A model generated the notes under the pieces. It was given only the letters and a program-made list of their open reading frames with translations, did no database searches and was not told the DNA's origin. Of a DNA stretch of 64,000 nucleotides, positions 3,501 through 64,000 are shown piece after piece; position 1 is the first letter of the stretch, and each line of letters begins with the position of its first letter. The translations under genes were made by a program, and so were the position numbers. The stretch is taken from the NCBI RefSeq assembly GCF_026151205.1, contig NC_087074.1:7915726-7979725 (forward strand), written 5' to 3'. The stretch is from Bolinopsis microptera. Lineage: Eukaryota > Ctenophora > Tentaculata > Lobata > Bolinopsidae.

Positions 3501-6500
3501 TTCTGTCGTGTTGTAACTGGGTTGTTATTGGTTTAACTTTAAGGAAAAGGGCCGAGATAAAAAGGAAATACGGGTATTATTAATATCATAGTGATGAGCT
3601 TTAAATGCGATGTAATTTAAATGAAACTTCGTAATGACTCGAAATCAAACTGTGATAAAAGCTTTAATGACACGACAACCGTTTAATATACAGTTTGAGT
3701 ACCATGACCATTATCCAGATAATAAATAGGTACCATAGTGTTAAAAGGGTGGAGGGTACCGTCCGTAGCATCGTCAATAACACTGTAGTCAAACTGAACC
3801 CAATAGTCCTCCTTTTCCTCTGAAACCATGTTATCTGGATCCACATAGGTGCACCTGAGGAGTAGTTGTCACACTGTTTGGTTATTTATAACCCCCTCCC
3901 TCTATTTACTAAGCTGAATCTAAGATAAGGAGTAAGGACATAAAAGCGCGTATAAAATTTCAACCATGTAAGACAAAATTATTGCATTTTTTCTACCGTA
4001 ACAATTAAACAGAAATCATCCCTCTCCTCTAAAACAAACGTTAACAATATAAAATAAATTTGATTTAAGTAAAGAAATTGTGTTACTTGTCAAAAACAGC
4101 TCTCGCCTGGGAGGGATAGTGTATGATTAGTTGATGCAGAGGGTGACTGTTGATCAACTGCTCTTTCCGGGCTTTCTTTCCCCCGACTTCCGATAACATG
4201 TTTAGTTTGACACCACTTGTATCTACTGCATCACCTCCAGATTCTAACGCTGGCTCTGAGGAGAAATTGTAACTTTGTAAGGTTTTTAGATCTACAGGGC
4301 ACTGCACTGTGCACCAATTCATAAACTTGACACAACTTTACAATTCTATTCGATTCTATTTTGTGTTTTAGAAACACAGATCAGACAGAGTTACGCAGCA
4401 TTTTGTAATCACGAGTCTCTTATTTAACTATTTGTGCTATCAGTTCAAATTCTTAAATAAAATTGTTTGTTCAAGAAAAGTTGTTTTGTGACGTTAAATC
4501 TGTTTCTAGCAGTTTGTTGTAAGCTTAACTTTCACACTGGTCAAGTGGAAATCATTACAGATTGCCTTTTCTCCCACTATAACTATAACTACAGTTACCA
4601 TGGTTACCACCAATATACCACTATAACTATAACTACAGTTACCATGGTTACCACCAATATACCACTATAACTATAACTACAGTTACCATGGTTACCACCA
4701 ATATACCACTATAACTTCTAACCAACTGCGCTACCTGGCCGTCAATATACCACCAATATACCACTATAACTATAACTACAGTTACCATGGTTACCACCAA
4801 TATACCACTATAGCTATAACTATAACTACAGTTTCCATGGTTACCAGGTCGATATACCACTATAACTATAACTACAGTTACCATGGTTACCACCAATATA
4901 CCACTATAACTATAACTACAGTTACCATGGTTACCACCAATATACCACTATAACTATGACTACAGTTACCATGGTTACCACCAATATACCACTATAACTA
5001 TAACTACAGTTACCATGGTTACCACCAATAATCAATATACCATCCATCATAGACTCAACCCCCTTTTTGTTTATCGATCTTTTCGATCTTCCAAAAAACA
5101 TGAAATTACTATTAGTCTCCGGCCGATTGCTTCAGCATTGCACGGTAAACCTTAAAAGTGGCATATTACTACGTTTTAAAGTTTTAAACTGATCTGAAGT
5201 TGCTTGTAACATCTCAGTACATAACGTGTCTAACCCTTACAATTGTTAGCTAACACGTGACCACGTGATGACCATAATATAAGGAGTGTTAACATGATAC
5301 TACTGTTCACCTTAATTACATTCCTCTGTCACTATCCAGCACTCACTGAGGGTGAAGAAAGAGCACTGAGCTTCGGGGAGACAATAGGAGACTACATAGA
5401 GTGGGTCCCGGACATCCTGGATATCCCAGACACAAGACAGTTCAGCATGTGCACGTGGGTTCGGAAGAGGTACCGGGCAAGCTGGCCTCTGGTATTGTCC
5501 TACATTCCCCACAATGGCTGGAGATACAGCATGTTGCTAGGCGACGACGGGGCCTATAACTACGTGGTTCGCACTAACCTCTGCAGAGCAAGTTCTCACT
5601 GTCTGACATGGTTCCATGTGTGCTGAACCTGGGGGAGCAACACCACTACGATATTCCTTAAGGGGGGAGTTATCGGATCTACCAGCTCTGAGCGGAGAGA
5701 AGTCCGGACGAGGGGGGTGTTGTGTCCGGGGACCTCACCTCTTCGGGGGAGATCTCTACAACCTGTATACTCTATTATAATTAAAATCATCTTATCCATG
5801 TTTTCTTTAAATGTGGCACACGAAATCTGGTCAAAGATTGAGCCGAAGATCTTATCGGCGGCGGCCTTATAACCACAGTACTGACGCCGAATTACCGTCG
5901 TCTACATAAATTAGTACCAACCCTGTACCATAATAAAAGTTACAACATGCTGCTAAGTGCTACTATCATTTGGAGTAACTATATATTATTCTATAATATG
6001 CTATTATAGACTTGTGTTACGCTACGTAGGCCTAAAATAAGCACAGTAAAATCCCGCTACAATTTCCATAAATTCTCATCGCTAAAAACCGATTCCTGAA
6101 ACCACATTTCTCGAAAACATGCATCTACAGACGTCTCCTTTCCGTGGCTAACATGACGCAGTATGTACTGACTTCTGCACGGCTTCGCAAGTACCCATCC
6201 CGGCTGGTCGGAGAATTCCAAGTTCTGACGAACAACTACACACTCTGTACACTATCATGGCAAGACTATAATTCATTGGTGAAGTTCTGATAACCAGGGG
6301 GTGAAGCAGCATTGTTATTCAGATATATAGTCCCCAGTGTAACGCGTTATCTACTACAACTAGCTGAATCCCTCTAATACTGCTCGAGATAGCCTAGATA
6401 ATATTATATTTCTTGTATGTTATGCTGGTACCGTGATCAGTTCTTGTTATTTATCAGAATTTTTTATTTACCGTAAAAACAATGAAGTACTTATGTGTGG

Positions 6501-56990: not shown

Positions 56991-59702
56991 ATGAGGGATA
57001 TTCCATCTTGGGGTGTCTTCTTGCTGCTTCTTCTGTCGCTCTTTCCATTTCAAGTCCCGGGCACTGGTCCTCAGGGGAAAAAGTTTGCAGTTGATTTTGC
57101 GAAGTATGACGGACAGCATCCCTATTTACCCAGAGACACAGAGATAATAACAAAATGCTTCCAATATTCTCGATTGCTGCTTCCTGAATATTATGATAAA
57201 CCGGCCAAAGAAATAGGGAATAGTTCCACAATATGTCGGTTCAATTTCGACCCTTACCAAGGCCAAGGAAGGATTGACCCCACAGATTATGTCGATGAGA
57301 TAGTCCGGATTGCAAGTGATGAAGATGCAGTATGGACCTGTTCTCTGCCTGATAAGAACCTCTGTGATGGTGTGTCCCAGTGTCTCACTGATGAGTGTGG
57401 CTGCAAAAATAACTTGACTGAAGTTTTCTACTGCTTTGACGGCTCAGGCTGCATCTCGTTCGACGATCTATGTGATGGTACCCAGGACTGCATTGATGGG
57501 TCTGATGAGTGTTACTGTGAAGATTCTGTGAAGATATCTTGCCCGCTAATCAGCAGCACTCCCAATTGTTTGCCTGCTGTATCGTGCCTGGGTAGCCTGT
57601 CAACTAATTTGAATTGTACTATTCCAGATAAGAGTGACGCTGATAAATGTGAGGAGGCTTTTCGGGAGACTGATAAAATTTCTCCCTTGTACTCGTGTCT
57701 TGATAGACAATACCAACATAACCACCAGTCATTTACGTTATCAATGCGTGAGGATCCAATAAGTTTCGTGTCATCTTATTGCAAATATAACTGCGCTAAC
57801 GAGACAGACTTCGTGGTGGAAAATTGGGTACAATTTTGTGATCATATATTTAGTGATTTATGGTCAGAGAGCGACTTCGTTTTCAACTGTGAGAAAGATC
57901 CGTTTAGATCTGGAACAGAGTCTTTCCACGTGACAGCATTGTGTGATGAAAAGCAAGACTGTAAAAATGGGGCAGATGAAATTGGATGTCCGGGCAGGTT
58001 CTATTGCAGCCCAAACTCAACAGCAGAGTGGGTTGATCCTGACAAAGTATGTGATCATGTGAAGGATTGTGCTGACGGTAGTGATGAATGTGGGACATGT
58101 GACTTGGGAAGTTTGTCCTCCTCAAAGTTCCTTATTCGATCCATACCGGTTCTAGTAGTCACAATTTTCATGGGGCTCTTCATAGTCATCATCAACTCTG
58201 TAGAGGGATACAAATGCTATCGCTCCCAAAAGGATTCAAAGACCGGTCAAATTGACAGAATTTTCCGTCTCCAAATATTCTTCTACGATCTGCTGATGGG
58301 ATTATATCTGTGCTGTATCGTTATAGCCGCTACAGTGCTCCGATTCAAAGGCGACTACTGCTTGTTGGAGAGAAAGTGGCGAGCCAGTATATCGTGCTCT
58401 AGTCTTGGTGTGCTCTTCTCTGTATCTTCTCATGGCTCCTTGTTGACTGTCGCATCTGTTAGTGTGATCAGATGGCTGAATTGCACCAGTATGGTTTGGG
58501 AAATGAAAACAAGGATGGTTGTCTTAGGATCCGCTTTAGGTCTTCTCCTAAATGTAGCTCATGCTGTTCTTCCGCTCCTATCCATTTCTGCCGTACAGGA
58601 TATTTTTAGGACGGAAATATTCTTCACTCATCTTGATGAAAATCCATTTTTTAGCAAGAATCCTATCGACCTACCTAGACTTACAAAAATGTACGAGGGT
58701 GCATTTGCTACGGAAAGTAACACAAACGCCATGCTGGAAAAGCTCCGAAACACGACTTCAAAGGGAAGCATATTCGATAGTGAGGAGATAGGCTACTACG
58801 GCAACACCGGATTATGTGTCCACAACATCTTCAAACTTCAGGAATCTTATCAGATCTACAAACTTCTATACTGCACGACTCTGGCAGTACTGTTGGTCAC
58901 AGTACTTGTAACATACACCAATATATTGCTGGAAGATAGAAAGAGTAAAGCACGTGTTGCGGCTCTACGAGAAGCAGAAAAGGCGAACATTACACAATCT
59001 CTAACAGTAAAAGTAGCTCTTATGATCGGAAGTCAACTCATAGCCTGGATACCCTTCATCATAGCAACAGTCTATTACCAGCTCATTTCCAAACAATCAG
59101 TACCACCTTCAGTTTTTGAGGTGTTCGCTCTGGTGGTCATCCCAGGCAACAGTTTTCTGAATCCCTTATTTTATAGCGACCTATACAAAAAGGCTGTTGG
59201 TTACCTATTGGCAGGTAGGAGATGGTCGGTGAACATGATCGCGATGTTCACTGACACCTGGAGACTGCCACCTGGAGACGAGGTCAGGAACATTCAGACT
59301 TGGAAGTGTGGACCTGGAGACGAGGTCAGGAACATGGAGACTGTGCAGTGTGCACCTGGAGACGAGGTCGGGAACATGGAGACTGTGCAGTGTGAACCTG
59401 GAGAAGAGGTCAGGAACATGGAGACTGTGCAGTGTGAACCTGGAGACGAGGTCGGGAACATGGAGACTGTGCAGTGTGAACCTGGAGACGAGGTCAGGAA
59501 CATGGAGACTGTGCAGTGTGAACCTGGTGACGAGGTCAGGAACATGGAGACTGTGCAGTGTGCACCTGGAGACGAGGTCGGGAACATGGAGACTGTGCAG
59601 TGTGAACCTGGAGACGAGGTCGGGAACATGGAGACTGTACAGTGTGAACCTGGTGACGAGGTCAGGAACATGGAGACTGTGCAGTGTGCACCTGGAGACT
59701 AG
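56991..59702 (+). CDS. LDLa-repeat G protein-coupled receptor with repeat-built tail, intronless
   Basis: A 903-residue single-exon receptor. A signal peptide (SWGVFLLLLLSLFPFQVPG) is followed by a Cys-rich ectodomain with LDL-receptor class A modules, for example FDDLCDGTQDCIDGSDEC, LCDEKQDCKNGADEIGC and VCDHVKDCADGSDEC. Seven membrane spans run from about residue 380 to 725. TM3 ends in VIRW (arginine kept, DRY otherwise lost), TM6 has AWIP, and TM7 has NPLFY. The long loop before TM5 carries Cys that may pair with TM3. The layout recalls LDLa-containing relaxin-receptor-like GPCRs, but no leucine-rich repeats are seen. From about residue 757 the tail is ten or more copies of a 14-residue repeat (PGDEVRNMETVQCE) up to the stop at 59700-59702. 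Ligand unknown. Confidence 0.88.
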   Translation: MRDIPSWGVFLLLLLSLFPFQVPGTGPQGKKFAVDFAKYDGQHPYLPRDTEIITKCFQYSRLLLPEYYDKPAKEIGNSSTICRFNFDPYQGQGRIDPTDYVDEIVRIASDEDAVWTCSLPDKNLCDGVSQCLTDECGCKNNLTEVFYCFDGSGCISFDDLCDGTQDCIDGSDECYCEDSVKISCPLISSTPNCLPAVSCLGSLSTNLNCTIPDKSDADKCEEAFRETDKISPLYSCLDRQYQHNHQSFTLSMREDPISFVSSYCKYNCANETDFVVENWVQFCDHIFSDLWSESDFVFNCEKDPFRSGTESFHVTALCDEKQDCKNGADEIGCPGRFYCSPNSTAEWVDPDKVCDHVKDCADGSDECGTCDLGSLSSSKFLIRSIPVLVVTIFMGLFIVIINSVEGYKCYRSQKDSKTGQIDRIFRLQIFFYDLLMGLYLCCIVIAATVLRFKGDYCLLERKWRASISCSSLGVLFSVSSHGSLLTVASVSVIRWLNCTSMVWEMKTRMVVLGSALGLLLNVAHAVLPLLSISAVQDIFRTEIFFTHLDENPFFSKNPIDLPRLTKMYEGAFATESNTNAMLEKLRNTTSKGSIFDSEEIGYYGNTGLCVHNIFKLQESYQIYKLLYCTTLAVLLVTVLVTYTNILLEDRKSKARVAALREAEKANITQSLTVKVALMIGSQLIAWIPFIIATVYYQLISKQSVPPSVFEVFALVVIPGNSFLNPLFYSDLYKKAVGYLLAGRRWSVNMIAMFTDTWRLPPGDEVRNIQTWKCGPGDEVRNMETVQCAPGDEVGNMETVQCEPGEEVRNMETVQCEPGDEVGNMETVQCEPGDEVRNMETVQCEPGDEVRNMETVQCAPGDEVGNMETVQCEPGDEVGNMETVQCEPGDEVRNMETVQCAPGD

Positions 59703-59945
59703 GTCAGGAACATAGAGACTGTGCAGTGTAAAACTGGAGACGAGGTCAGGAACATGGAGACTGTGCAGTGTGCACCTGGTGACGAGGTGAGGAACATGGA
59801 GACTGTGTAGTGTGCACCTGGAGACGAGGTGAGGAATATGGAGACTGTGCAGTGTGAACCTGGAAACGGGGTCAGGAACATGGAGACTGTGCAGTGTGAA
59901 CCTAGAGACAATGTCAGGAACATGGAGACTGTGCAGTGTGAACCT
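59262..59945. repeat. 42-bp minisatellite coding the receptor tail and running past its stop
   Basis: About 16 units of 42 bases (CCTGGAGACGAGGTCAGGAA, then CATGGAGACTGTGCAGTGTG, and two more). As 42 is divisible by three, several frames stay open on both strands, which explains the long shadow frames. The receptor stop is a single-base change (GACGAG to GACTAG) within a unit; six further units follow as 3' UTR. Confidence 0.93.
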
Positions 59946-60324
59946 GATGCATATTTGAAGTTATAACTAATAATAAGACGTACTTATCGCTGTGATGACA
60001 AGTATTTTTGCCGATGCAGTTTGCAAATAGTTTGTTAGTATGTATATTGTTATTTGCTTTTTGGATTAAGTTACAAATTCCAGCGTCTTCTATGTGTAGT
60101 GATAATACTTGATTACAACAGATGTGTACTATACGATCTACATAATTACTACATGCAAACAACCAAGTAATGGCCAATGGGAATAACAACATAATAATAG
60201 GTATCTTGTTTGAGCGGTACATAACCCTAGAGTGTAAAGAACTGTTTCCAGATAAGTCTGCCCGACAGAGGGAGCAGAAAAATGTCACATCTTGCGTGGA
60301 AGCGTGAAGCAGGAAATAAATTGT

Positions 60325-60670
60325 GATCGGCCAGGTAGCGCAGTTGGTTAGAACGCCTGTCTTACAATCGTTAGGTTGCGAGTTCGAAACCCACTGACTG
60401 CCTGGTCGTCGACGTTCAGCTAAGGATCATGAGTGGTCTATGCAGCCCCCCGGTCTACTCAGCCGAATACTCGAGAAATCGGGTGTGAGGGTTAAATGAG
60501 GAGCTGCACATTGCAGCAAAGTCTCGGACGAAGAAAGTATGGTACACACTACCTTAACCGTCACTGGCCAAAAAGATCCTTCGGCTTCCTGTAATTGGCT
60601 GGTTGCACTTGTGTAACATTGTGGCTGTTGGAATACACCGAAGTAAAATAAGTGTCTAGATAAAAAAATC
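60325..60670 (+). mobile_element. tRNA-derived SINE, copy 2
   Basis: Better preserved copy: A box in GGTAGCGCAGTTGGTTAGA and B box in GAGTTCGAAACCC. Flanked by the 10-base duplication AATAAATTGT (60315-60324 and 60671-60680). The anticodon arm is too degraded to name the parent tRNA. Confidence 0.9.
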
Positions 60671-60680
60671 AATAAATTGT

Positions 60681-61226
60681 AATCTCGAGGTCTGGATATA
60701 AGATTAACTTGAAACTTTCCAGATAGCTATATGGTTATGATATGGATAATCTGTGGAAGTTTGGGCGAATTTTTATATCACTTCAAACACAAAAAATTAT
60801 CTCCAAATGAGTGGTTTGCGGTGTTACAACGCATACATCTCGAGATCTGAATATACTTTTCATTGAAACGTTCCAGATAGTTATATTTATCATGGTATGC
60901 TGTTTGCTATACGGGTCTATAATTTTATAATAGTACGTGCATATAAATAGCTAGTACGTATTATAGTAAGGGGAAAAGTGGTCGATTTAAGGGTTCCATT
61001 GGATTTGAATGTTCACAAGGATTTCTCAACGGAATATGGTAGTTAAGACCCCTACGAACATAATTAGACTTGTTGCCAATTTTGTATCTCAACAGAAACA
61101 CCACTTTTACCACTTTTTACCACCTTTGTACCACCTGTCTGGTTTGCCAAATATCTTTAGTTGTGAACGTCGTAAAAGGCTGCAAATTAACCTAGAATGT
61201 TTATCTTATCAAGGAGTAAAACTTTT
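60681..61226. other. Spacer before the terminal palindrome
   Basis: No gene seen. The frame at 61009-61260 has no recognisable content. Part of it may belong to the palindromic element. Confidence 0.5.
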
Positions 61227-64000
61227 GTGTGAAAAATTTTTACATTGGACAATCAGCTAATTGTATAATTACCAATTAGTTAATCACCAAAAAATTTGAA
61301 AATTTTTTATTGGCTCAAAATGATTGAAATCGTTTGAAACACGGAGAAATGTAGTTTTTAGAAAAACTTCAAAAATTTTTCACTTAAAAATTTTTTTCGA
61401 GACTTAGAAAAAAGTTTGAAAATTTAAAAATATTTTTATTCCGCCAAAAGTGATCGAATTGCATGAAACGTGGATAAAAATGCTTTGCAGAAAAACTTCG
61501 AAGATTTTGAGATTGGGGAATACTAAAATCATCAATATTTGAAGTTGGAGTTCAGTAAATCTCGACATATTTTAGTAATTAGGAATAGCTTAGCGGAAAG
61601 GGCCGAACCTGAAAAAGGTTAACCACACAATATTAGAGTTTCATAACTAATTACAATACAGCTTTTATTCCACAAATTCCACATAAAGAAACAGCACAAA
61701 AGGACCATTTAAGATCGAACCGATTTTACCTGCTGTACTATCATTTTATTGATTTCAATGATCAAAACCTCTGTACCGTCAATCTTGCCAATCTATACCG
61801 GGTATCTGAATGTACCGGACCTCTTATTTACCTCTATAATTAGACCCAGTTGTGCAAGAAATGCGATTTCTCACAGGGGTTTCTTTTAACTGTGCACTTT
61901 TTGTCACTCTCGCAACTCGCAAGAGGCCCGGTATTATAGGGGGGTATAGGAAGCGAGTGTAAATATACCTTCCATCATCCACTGTGCCCCCACTGTGGCT
62001 TTTTTGTATTGTGAATGCGCATGCCGCTTCGTTTGCTATGCCAGATACCTCGAATAACCCCCATATGTCATTGCCAGGGTCGGGATAGAGCTGGAGATAG
62101 CATTGAAAAGTTGCTAGAAATAGCTAGATTTAGAGTAAACTGGTGGTAGCTGGGTGGTGCTAGCATGGATGTAGCAGAACGTAGCTACACGGGGTTTCAT
62201 TGGAGTTGGTTATTTTAATGGCCAAAGAGTGCCGGAACTAAAGTTACTTAAGATTGCAGTTGAGGGGCAGTGTAAACCACGGTGTAGTCAGGGACACAGA
62301 GCTACAGTGCAGGAGTACTGCAAGTGCAATAGAACAGTGCAAGTGATACAGTCTGCAACAGTAAAACGCCGACGAAGCTAGACTTAGAGTGAACTGATGG
62401 AAGCTGGGTGGTGCTAAAATGGAGGTAGCAGAACGTACTACATGATGAAAACAGGAAAACTAAGGCTGGTTGAGACCTAAAAAGATGTGAATCTGTCCTG
62501 ATAGATCCAGTGAAGAGCGAGTAGCGAAGAGTTTGATCACTAACCTAAAGCTCTAAAGAAGAAGAGGGCTAAAGAGACTCACTTTGATCAATCAATCTAA
62601 AAAGGGTGGGTCAGTCTCTCTGTTTTCATCAGATTCTGATGAAAGGCTGTTAAGCTCAGGACGGTGATCTTAATAGGTCGGATAGCTGTACCTGGTTGCT
62701 TCCAGCCCACCCTTGTCGCTTGAAAATAAGTTCTCACCCCACCTCTTCCAAAAATGCAGTGACCAGAGCAGGAAACTCTTCTTCCTACTCTTCTTTCAAC
62801 CCAAACAAAATCAGGTTCCAGCTCCTCTCCTCCTCTGCAGCCACAATCTTATCTCCTTCTTCGGCGTTTTACTGTTGCATACTGTATCACTTGCACTGTT
62901 CTTTTGCACTTGCAGTACTCCTGCACTGTAGCTCTGTGTCCCTGACTACACCGTGGTTTACACTGCCCCTCAACTGCAATCTTAAGTAACTTTAGTTCCG
63001 GCACTCTTTGGCCATTAAAATAACCAACTCCAATGAAACCCCGTGTAGCTACGTTCTGCTACATCCATGCTAGCACCACCCAGCTACCACCAGTTTACTC
63101 TAAATCTAGCTATTTCTAGCAACTTTTCAATGCTATCTCCAGCTCTATCCCGACCCTGGCAATGACATATGGGGGTTATTCGAGGTATCTGGCATAGCAA
63201 ACGAAGCGGCATGCGCATTCACAATACAAAAAAGCCACAGTGGGGGCACAGTGGATGATGGAAGGTATATTTACACTCGCTTCCTATACCCCCCTATAAT
63301 ACCGGGCCTCTTGCGAGTTGCGAGAGTGACAAAAAGTGCACAGTTAAAAGAAACCCCTGTGAGAAATCGCATTTCTTGCACAACTGGGTCTAATTATAGA
63401 GGTAAATAAGAGGTCCGGTACATTCAGATACCCGGTATAGATTGGCAAGATTGACGGTACAGAGGTTTTGATCATTGAAATCAATAAAATGATAGTACAG
63501 CAGGTAAAATCGGTTCGATCTTAAATGGTCCTTTTGTGCTGTTTCTTTATGTGGAATTTGATAAAGCTGTATTGTAATTAGTTATGAAACTCTAATATTG
63601 TGTGGTTAACCTTTTTCAGGTTCAGCCCTTTCCGCTAAGCTATTCCTAATTACTAAAATATGTCGAGATTTACTGAACTCCAACTTCAAATATTGATGAT
63701 TTTAGTATTCCCCTATCTCAAAATCTTCGAAGTTTTTCTGCAAAGCATTTTTATCCACGTTTCATGCAATTCGATCACTTTTGGCGGAAAAAAATATTTT
63801 TAAATTTTCAAACTTTTTTCAAAGTCTCGAAAAAAATTTTTAAGTGAAAAATTTTTGAAGTTTTTCTAAAAACTACATTTCTCCGTGTTTCAAACGATTT
63901 CAATCATTTTGAGCCAATAAAAAATTTTCACTTTTTTTGGTGATTAACTAATTGGTAATTATCCAATTAGCTGATTGTCCAATGTAAAAATTTTTCACAC
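61227..64000. repeat. Foldback palindrome 3 (at least 2.77 kb, reaches the window edge)
   Basis: Left arm 61227-62377 and right arm about 62858-64000 are inverted copies with few differences, around a spacer of about 480 bases. Position 61227 pairs with the last base of the window, so the arms may extend further. The arms hold AT-rich stretches with AAAAATTTTT runs and a GC-richer inner third. The spacer starts with a partial direct copy of arm sequence (62378-62444 resembles 62115-62188). No transposase frame seen. Likely a non-autonomous foldback element. Confidence 0.88.

Follow-up and report, generated by a model that had tools for sequence, protein, structure and literature searches.

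The palindromic element and its surroundings

The window analysed here is a stretch of 64,000 nucleotides on contig C3 (G000:C3:7915726-7979725), and the genome searched comprises 264.65 Mb in 232 contigs. A long palindromic element lies at the right end of the window, with the following features.

60961-60963, no strand: left copy of the target site duplication (TSD), TTA; the right copy lies outside the window
60964-60981, plus strand: L-type tip TAGTAAGGGGAAAAGTGG, the sole match in the window at up to 3 mismatches
60982-60993, plus strand: stretch that discriminates L from R ends, 10 nt longer in L, a difference fixed in 24/24 L and 24/24 R arms
60964-61090, plus strand: 127-nt end common to a 7.7-kb coding element, whose C2 and C12 copies match it at 94.5% with their L-type end
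60964-62377, plus strand: left arm, 1,414 nt
62122-62183, plus strand: arm segment A, repeated in the spacer
62376-62437, plus strand: diverged direct copy A' at the junction of arm and spacer, 55/62 identical to A
62378-62855, plus strand: spacer, 478 nt; 87 nt more follow spacer position 220 in 8/25 copies
62856-64000, minus strand: window portion of the right arm, which runs 253 nt further, to C3:7979978

The complete element measures 3,290 bp, from window position 60964 to 253 bases beyond the window end, and is cut by the window edge on its right side. Its right terminus, at C3:7979978, is the inverse of the left tip. The arms (1,414 nt on the left and 1,398 nt on the right) share 1,388 identical positions, the remainder of the alignment being 10 mismatches and 16 gap columns, and their innermost 705 nt (61673-62377 and 62856-63560) show 3 differences. 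The first-pass annotation had described two inverted arms of about 1.15 kb starting at 61227. The arms are real; their start and length are not as described, because position 61227 mirrors the window edge at 64000. Extension to the right, which it had proposed, carries the arm on for 253 bases to its tip, and the interval ends that it reported were set by that edge. The spacer, given as 480 bases, measures 478 nt, and the direct copy placed at 62378-62444 of a segment at 62115-62188 exists with the corrected bounds listed above. The annotation had also seen no open reading frame (ORF), and no long one is present: the longest start-to-stop ORF in the window part of the element encodes 97 aa (ORFs were listed from 80 aa). 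A tandem-repeat scan of the same part returned two arrays only, of 1.9 copies each.

Several other features lie in the window. A 42-nt minisatellite of 16 copies (59270-59946) overlaps the 3' end of a receptor-like ORF at 56991-59702, which has an LDL-receptor class A match and a 7tm_1 match just below the cut-off; an ORF of this kind suggests that the DNA comes from an animal. An ORF at 51751-52056 matches the DnaJ domain. A tRNA-like head, GGCCAGGTAGCGCAGTTGGTTAGAAC, occurs at 60329-60354 and 4715-4740, and also beside a copy of the palindrome at C11:4907000. No tRNA gene was called, and the sequence is probably a tRNA-derived SINE.

Dispersed copies and target site duplications

A DNA search of the genome with the window element, of the kind suggested by the first-pass annotation, returned at least 65 matching pieces. 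Merging the loci that were fetched gives 28 places; both arms recur at 27 of these, and at the remaining one, on C7, a single arm is visible in the part that was read. Reading from tip to tip was possible for 24 of the 28 loci, which together with locus L051 gives 25 foldback copies. Four loci (C12:5343000, C6:16391687, C8:934452, and C7:13053500) were left out because the sequence retrieved for them is truncated or interrupted.

An exact 3-bp TSD lies outside the tips in 24 of the 25 foldback copies, and the sole copy without one (C1:21519500) has an altered outer tip. The full set of 27 tip pairings, made up of the 25 foldback copies, one coding copy (L050), and an inner pairing that is spurious, includes 25 with a 3-bp TSD; in 1,000 shuffled pairings the count averaged 2.0 and never exceeded 7. 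No match of four or more bases was found among the 27. The duplicated triplets vary and include TTA, TAA, AAC, GAG, TCT, CAG, CAT, and others. The dinucleotide TA was rejected as the duplication, since it heads the conserved tip and the true 3-bp TSD lies outside.

The tip pattern, searched with up to one mismatch, matches 314 genome sites, and a reversed control matches 1. Among 100 of these 314 sites (all exact, on contigs C1-C5), 84 face one another in 42 pairs, and the spacing is 3.1-3.5 kb in 25 of the pairs. Facing pairs span 374 bp to 7.8 kb. One 587-nt insert is common to two foldback copies at different sites, with 99.8% identity; therefore, interrupted foldback copies were still mobile. 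The window palindrome is one copy of a real, recently mobile, non-coding foldback transposon family. Conserved tips, 3-bp TSDs, and dispersed copies refute the earlier suggestion that it might not be a transposon at all.

Two further observations were made while reading these loci. Near the end of C3 (21.28 Mb), eight exact tip sites fall within 55 kb (G000:C3:21178536-21233361); seven of the eight share a strand, in contrast to the facing arrangement seen at other places, and this cluster is perhaps a subtelomeric array. In foldback copy L051, the spacer contains a nested 3.19-kb inverted-repeat element (L051:2036-5226, C2:14419435-14422625), which has 738-nt arms (99%) and tips TAGGGCCTGTCGTGAT and is flanked by a 9-bp TSD, TCTCTTTAG. 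This is a second, unrelated long-arm family.

Two kinds of end shared with coding and miniature elements

The two ends of the foldback differ. The L end has 10 extra nt at positions 19-30, which the R end does not have, and there is no exception among 24 L and 24 R arms. Both kinds of end also bound a longer, coding element. At L050, a facing tip pair lies 7,761 bp apart, and only the ends are common with the window element. A protein search of the genome located five near-identical copies of this coding element (on C2, C5, C6, C10, and C12), with an open frame of 1,438 residues in two of them (C5 and C12). Both ends were read in three copies, and two of these carry a 3-bp TSD, TTT in each case (C12, 7,671 bp; C2, 7,761 bp); the C5 copy (7,553 bp) has an altered tip and no TSD. 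The C6 and C10 copies were read at one end only. At L050:5484-6291, an array of near-identical units adjoins the start of the large ORF, and alignment to the other copies is broken there, as if the length of the array were variable between copies.

The ends of the two elements were compared in both combinations. Over the outermost 30 nt, the foldback L end is identical to the coding L end at 30/30 positions in C12 and C2 and at 27/30 in C5, and over the outermost 20 nt the R ends agree at 20/20 in C2, C5, and C12. Over longer distances, L-L identity is 93.6-94.5% across 125-127 nt (C2, C5, and C12) and R-R identity is 93.2-94.0% across 117 nt (all five copies). Swapped ends reach 84-86%, against 94% for like ends, a contrast that is due to the 10-nt indel alone. 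Inward of this indel, like ends agree at 90/97 positions and swapped ends at 89-91/97, while the two ends within one element agree at 96/97 in foldback and coding element alike. The end-specific match is confined to the outermost 20-30 nt.

No coding-element counterpart was found for the foldback arm beyond the terminal 117-127 nt, nor for the spacer. A tblastn search with the coding protein gave no match to the window element up to E 10, and only hits of E 0.6 and above to foldback copy L051. A miniature form is also present: L069 is 374 bp long, has the same tips and a 3-bp TSD (ATA), and matches three coding copies in their L end, with 94.2-95.8% identity across 333-343 nt.

The protein of the coding element

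In a Pfam search, a CXC motif (Tesmin/TSO1-like) near the C terminus was the only meaningful match of the 1,438-aa protein; no Pfam transposase domain, including DDE domains, was found in it. The NCBIfam and PHROGs collections gave nothing below E 0.02, and no relatives of the protein were confirmed in the viral contigs and prokaryote genomes searched. Within its own genome the protein has more distant company. Thirteen of the 36 rows of the genome protein search are remote relatives with 23-26% identity, of which 12 lie in frames of more than 1,000 residues and 9 in frames of more than 1,500; three were read as examples. CXC-bearing remote families with frames of about 1,550 residues occur at G000:C6:3331435, C1:17562033, C13:4628453, C2:16073321, and others, which suggests that the genome holds more such elements.

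An invariant order of acidic residues, D..D..ExD..DxD..GxD, is present in five aligned rows, two of which are close relatives, and also in a four-row alignment. The arrangement D, D, E-x-D, D-x-D, G-x-D is that of FEN1/XPG nucleases. The Pfam XPG models did not match the coding protein, and the six genomic matches of XPG_I all lie away from the places where the transposon protein was located. A PDB profile search returned Exonuclease 1 in matching register at a non-significant E of 0.5-0.97, with an unrelated UPF0204 protein ranking higher. Comparison with FEN1 used a single sequence (human), because a FEN1 query of the prokaryote genomes found none; hhalign placed 49 columns in register, with P 0.028 and a probability of only 1.8. 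The protein may possess a FEN1/XPG-type nuclease region. Conserved D, H, and E positions are also found in the middle of the protein, and we would guess these to be a candidate DDE core.

Exchange between arms and orientation of the spacer

The arms of 24 copies were aligned, C10:9022000 being left out as it has no spacer. Relative to the L and R ends, the spacer is oriented one way in 22 of the 24 and flipped in two (C1:21519500 and C4:7755029). Both flipped copies belong to a three-copy class with one shared internal deletion, the third member of which (C10:11495506) is unflipped. Flipped interiors are the trace that recombination between arms would leave.

The arms also bear marks of sequence exchange. 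Mismatches between the L and R arms of one copy total 262 over the 24 copies, against a mean of 476.7 and a minimum of 389 in 200 random pairings. Among the 13 copies with the 478-nt spacer, the count is 163 against 186.5 (0/1,000 permutations as low); in the outer half of the arm it is 75 against 92.9 (0/1,000) and in the inner half 88 against 93.9 (89/1,000, not significant). The eight copies with a 565-nt spacer have 91 mismatches against 183.7 (0/1,000 permutations). By arm region, a copy's own arms are closer to each other than to the same-side arms of other copies at positions 160-700 and 900-1150, the result is mixed at 31-160 and 700-900, and at 1150-1414 own arms are farther apart (0.018, compared with 0.012 and 0.015 for same-side arms). 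Over positions 31-1150, 9 of the 48 arms have their own sister arm as single closest relative; the corresponding numbers are 8 (plus 8 ties) for positions 31-700 and 3 (plus 2 ties) for 700-1415. Copy-private changes occur in both arms in 11 cases and in one arm only in 88.

Arm-to-arm exchange is thus occasional rather than continual, because the inner half is non-significant in the 13-copy subfamily, the relationship is reversed at the centre, and the sister arm is nearest for only 9/48 arms. The difference between L and R ends escapes this exchange.

The spacer copy and the origin of the arms

The 62-nt copy of the arm segment in the spacer is present in 21 of the 25 foldback copies, in one of them without its first bases; therefore, it is ancestral and predates dispersal. 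The first-pass annotation had suggested that the element grew by slippage or template switching during replication. The copy is not a fresh slippage event; slippage or template switching may have contributed to the arms and the spacer copy at an earlier stage.

Eight of the 25 copies, including L051, have a spacer that is 87 nt longer. Five of these long copies were compared with the window copy, in which the 87 nt are absent between two ATC triplets. One long-form copy was tested, and 36 nt of its spacer resemble positions 9-42 of the L tip. Against the arm, the degenerate tip scores 33, with a maximum of 27 in 30 shuffles; against the coding element (plus orientation) it scores 35, with a maximum of 31, and the null for the opposite orientation went up to 36. 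The presence of a degenerate L-tip piece in the longer spacer is, by this alignment, moderately above chance. The succession of a diverged arm piece and a degenerate tip, both oriented alike, would agree with a relic of another element copy trapped between the arms, for example when two neighbouring copies transposed aberrantly; template switching would account for the tip-like piece as well. The palindrome may therefore descend from a rearrangement of two element copies. For the rest of the arm, inward from the shared end, no source was found.

How the foldback is mobilized

The evidence favours, with a probability of about 0.85, a foldback transposon whose tips the 7.7-kb coding element's protein recognises in trans. 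The earlier proposal that the palindrome depends on another element for its mobility is supported by the lack of a long ORF, the conserved tips, the TSDs, and the existence of a coding element with both tip kinds. The 1,438-aa protein would then be the transposase that acts on the palindrome. It would recognise the TAGTAAGGGGAAAAGTGG tips of the foldback in trans and insert either element, making the 3-bp TSD, presumably by a cut-and-paste mechanism. In the simplest reading, one transposase would serve the coding, miniature, and foldback forms. We infer that the long arms arose after the coding interior of the ancestor was lost; they would later have exchanged sequence now and then, with the short difference between L and R ends being kept.

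A different, unseen transposase might instead recognise the tips, in which case the gene of the 7.7-kb element would not be the mover. The coding protein is without a Pfam transposase domain and its DDE region is only a guess; moreover, with 100 of 314 sites listed, the genome may contain further coding elements that carry the tips. Set against this are the five near-identical coding copies, two with the open frame, as is expected of an element's own machinery, and the 13 further places at 23-26% identity, 12 of them in frames of more than 1,000 residues. We regard a separate mover as unlikely.

FB and Tm1 are foldback-type DNA transposons, and the TSD of Mutator-type and FB-type elements is about 9 bp. 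Assignment to this group, as a foldback like Tetris or Tm1, would suit the foldback architecture, and the part of the source available assigns the majority of described foldbacks to Mutator (PMC4079207). The TSD here is 3 bp and is longer in none of the pairings, which makes such membership very improbable. Two other groups were considered and rejected. PIF/Harbinger elements use a TWA-type 3-bp target and encode a DDE_Tnp_4 domain; the TSDs AAC, GAG, TCT, CAG, and CAT do not follow this target, and the partner has no DDE match in Pfam. Tc1/mariner elements duplicate a TA target, whereas here the TSD is 3 bp and the TA is part of the tip.

Palindromes that are long and almost perfect are a familiar product of misassembly, and a read folded on itself could yield a false palindrome, the more so as the window end falls within an arm; the recurrence of the same structure, tip to tip, at 25 loci with differing flanks, exact 3-bp TSDs at 24 of them, and fixed end differences leaves almost no room for an assembly hairpin. 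A static inverted repeat or segmental duplication of the host would likewise have no long ORF, and is practically dismissed by defined tips, 3-bp TSDs at 24/25 loci, and facing pairs that range from 374 bp to 7.8 kb.

Relation to described transposons

The present family shows structural features of the foldback class, namely long inverted arms around a middle domain and dispersed copies with TSDs. The family is ordinary in kind and unusual in completeness, and its lineage is probably unusual. In the available portions of their descriptions, Tetris has TSDs of 8-10 bp and a suggested place in Mutator (PMC4079207), and Galileo belongs to the P superfamily with TSDs of 7 bp (PMC2775673). As far as these accounts extend, the likeness lies in very long arms, a middle domain, non-autonomous copies, TSDs, and rearranged forms (PMC4079207, PMC2775673); the difference lies in the 3-bp TSD and the coding partner of another kind found here. 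The element also resembles miniature inverted-repeat elements (MITEs) in being a non-coding derivative that shares its tips with a coding element, as the 374-bp L069 does here. It differs from them in its size of 3.3 kb and in arms of 1.4 kb, of which only 127 nt are related to the coding element.

The nuclease of AcademX transposons is of the XPG type. The nearest named lineage for the coding partner is AcademX, because AcademX, in the section of its description available, makes TSDs of 3 or 4 bp, related to an encoded nuclease (PMC10045372); the comparison is by description only, and the coding partner fits this lineage without being proven to belong to it. The likeness, to the extent that the accessible text covers AcademX (PMC10045372), consists of 3-bp TSDs (2/3 coding copies) and a possible FEN1/XPG-type region. 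The window element differs in that it codes for no long protein. In the limited literature searched, none was found that joins 'Academ' and 'foldback'.

Implications

In the part of its description available, no coding partner was found for Tetris, and its superfamily was for this reason inferred from TSD length (PMC4079207). In the present case the coding, miniature, and foldback forms exist in one genome with the same tips, so the enzyme that moves a foldback is directly testable. A rather speculative extension, to which we give little credence, is that foldback derivatives owe their success to a FEN1/XPG-like, structure-specific nuclease of the partner, which would process hairpins or flaps at the arms in the course of transposition and so create, flip, and homogenise the arms, while the transposase keeps the ends distinct. 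If true, the formation of foldbacks would be a by-product of nuclease-bearing, AcademX-like transposons and not a chance error of replication.

The copies themselves allow the recombination of long arms to be followed, with two inverted interiors, a shared deletion, and arm-to-arm exchange. Should the partner prove AcademX-like, foldbacks would have arisen in one more transposon lineage, which has its own possible structure-specific nuclease.
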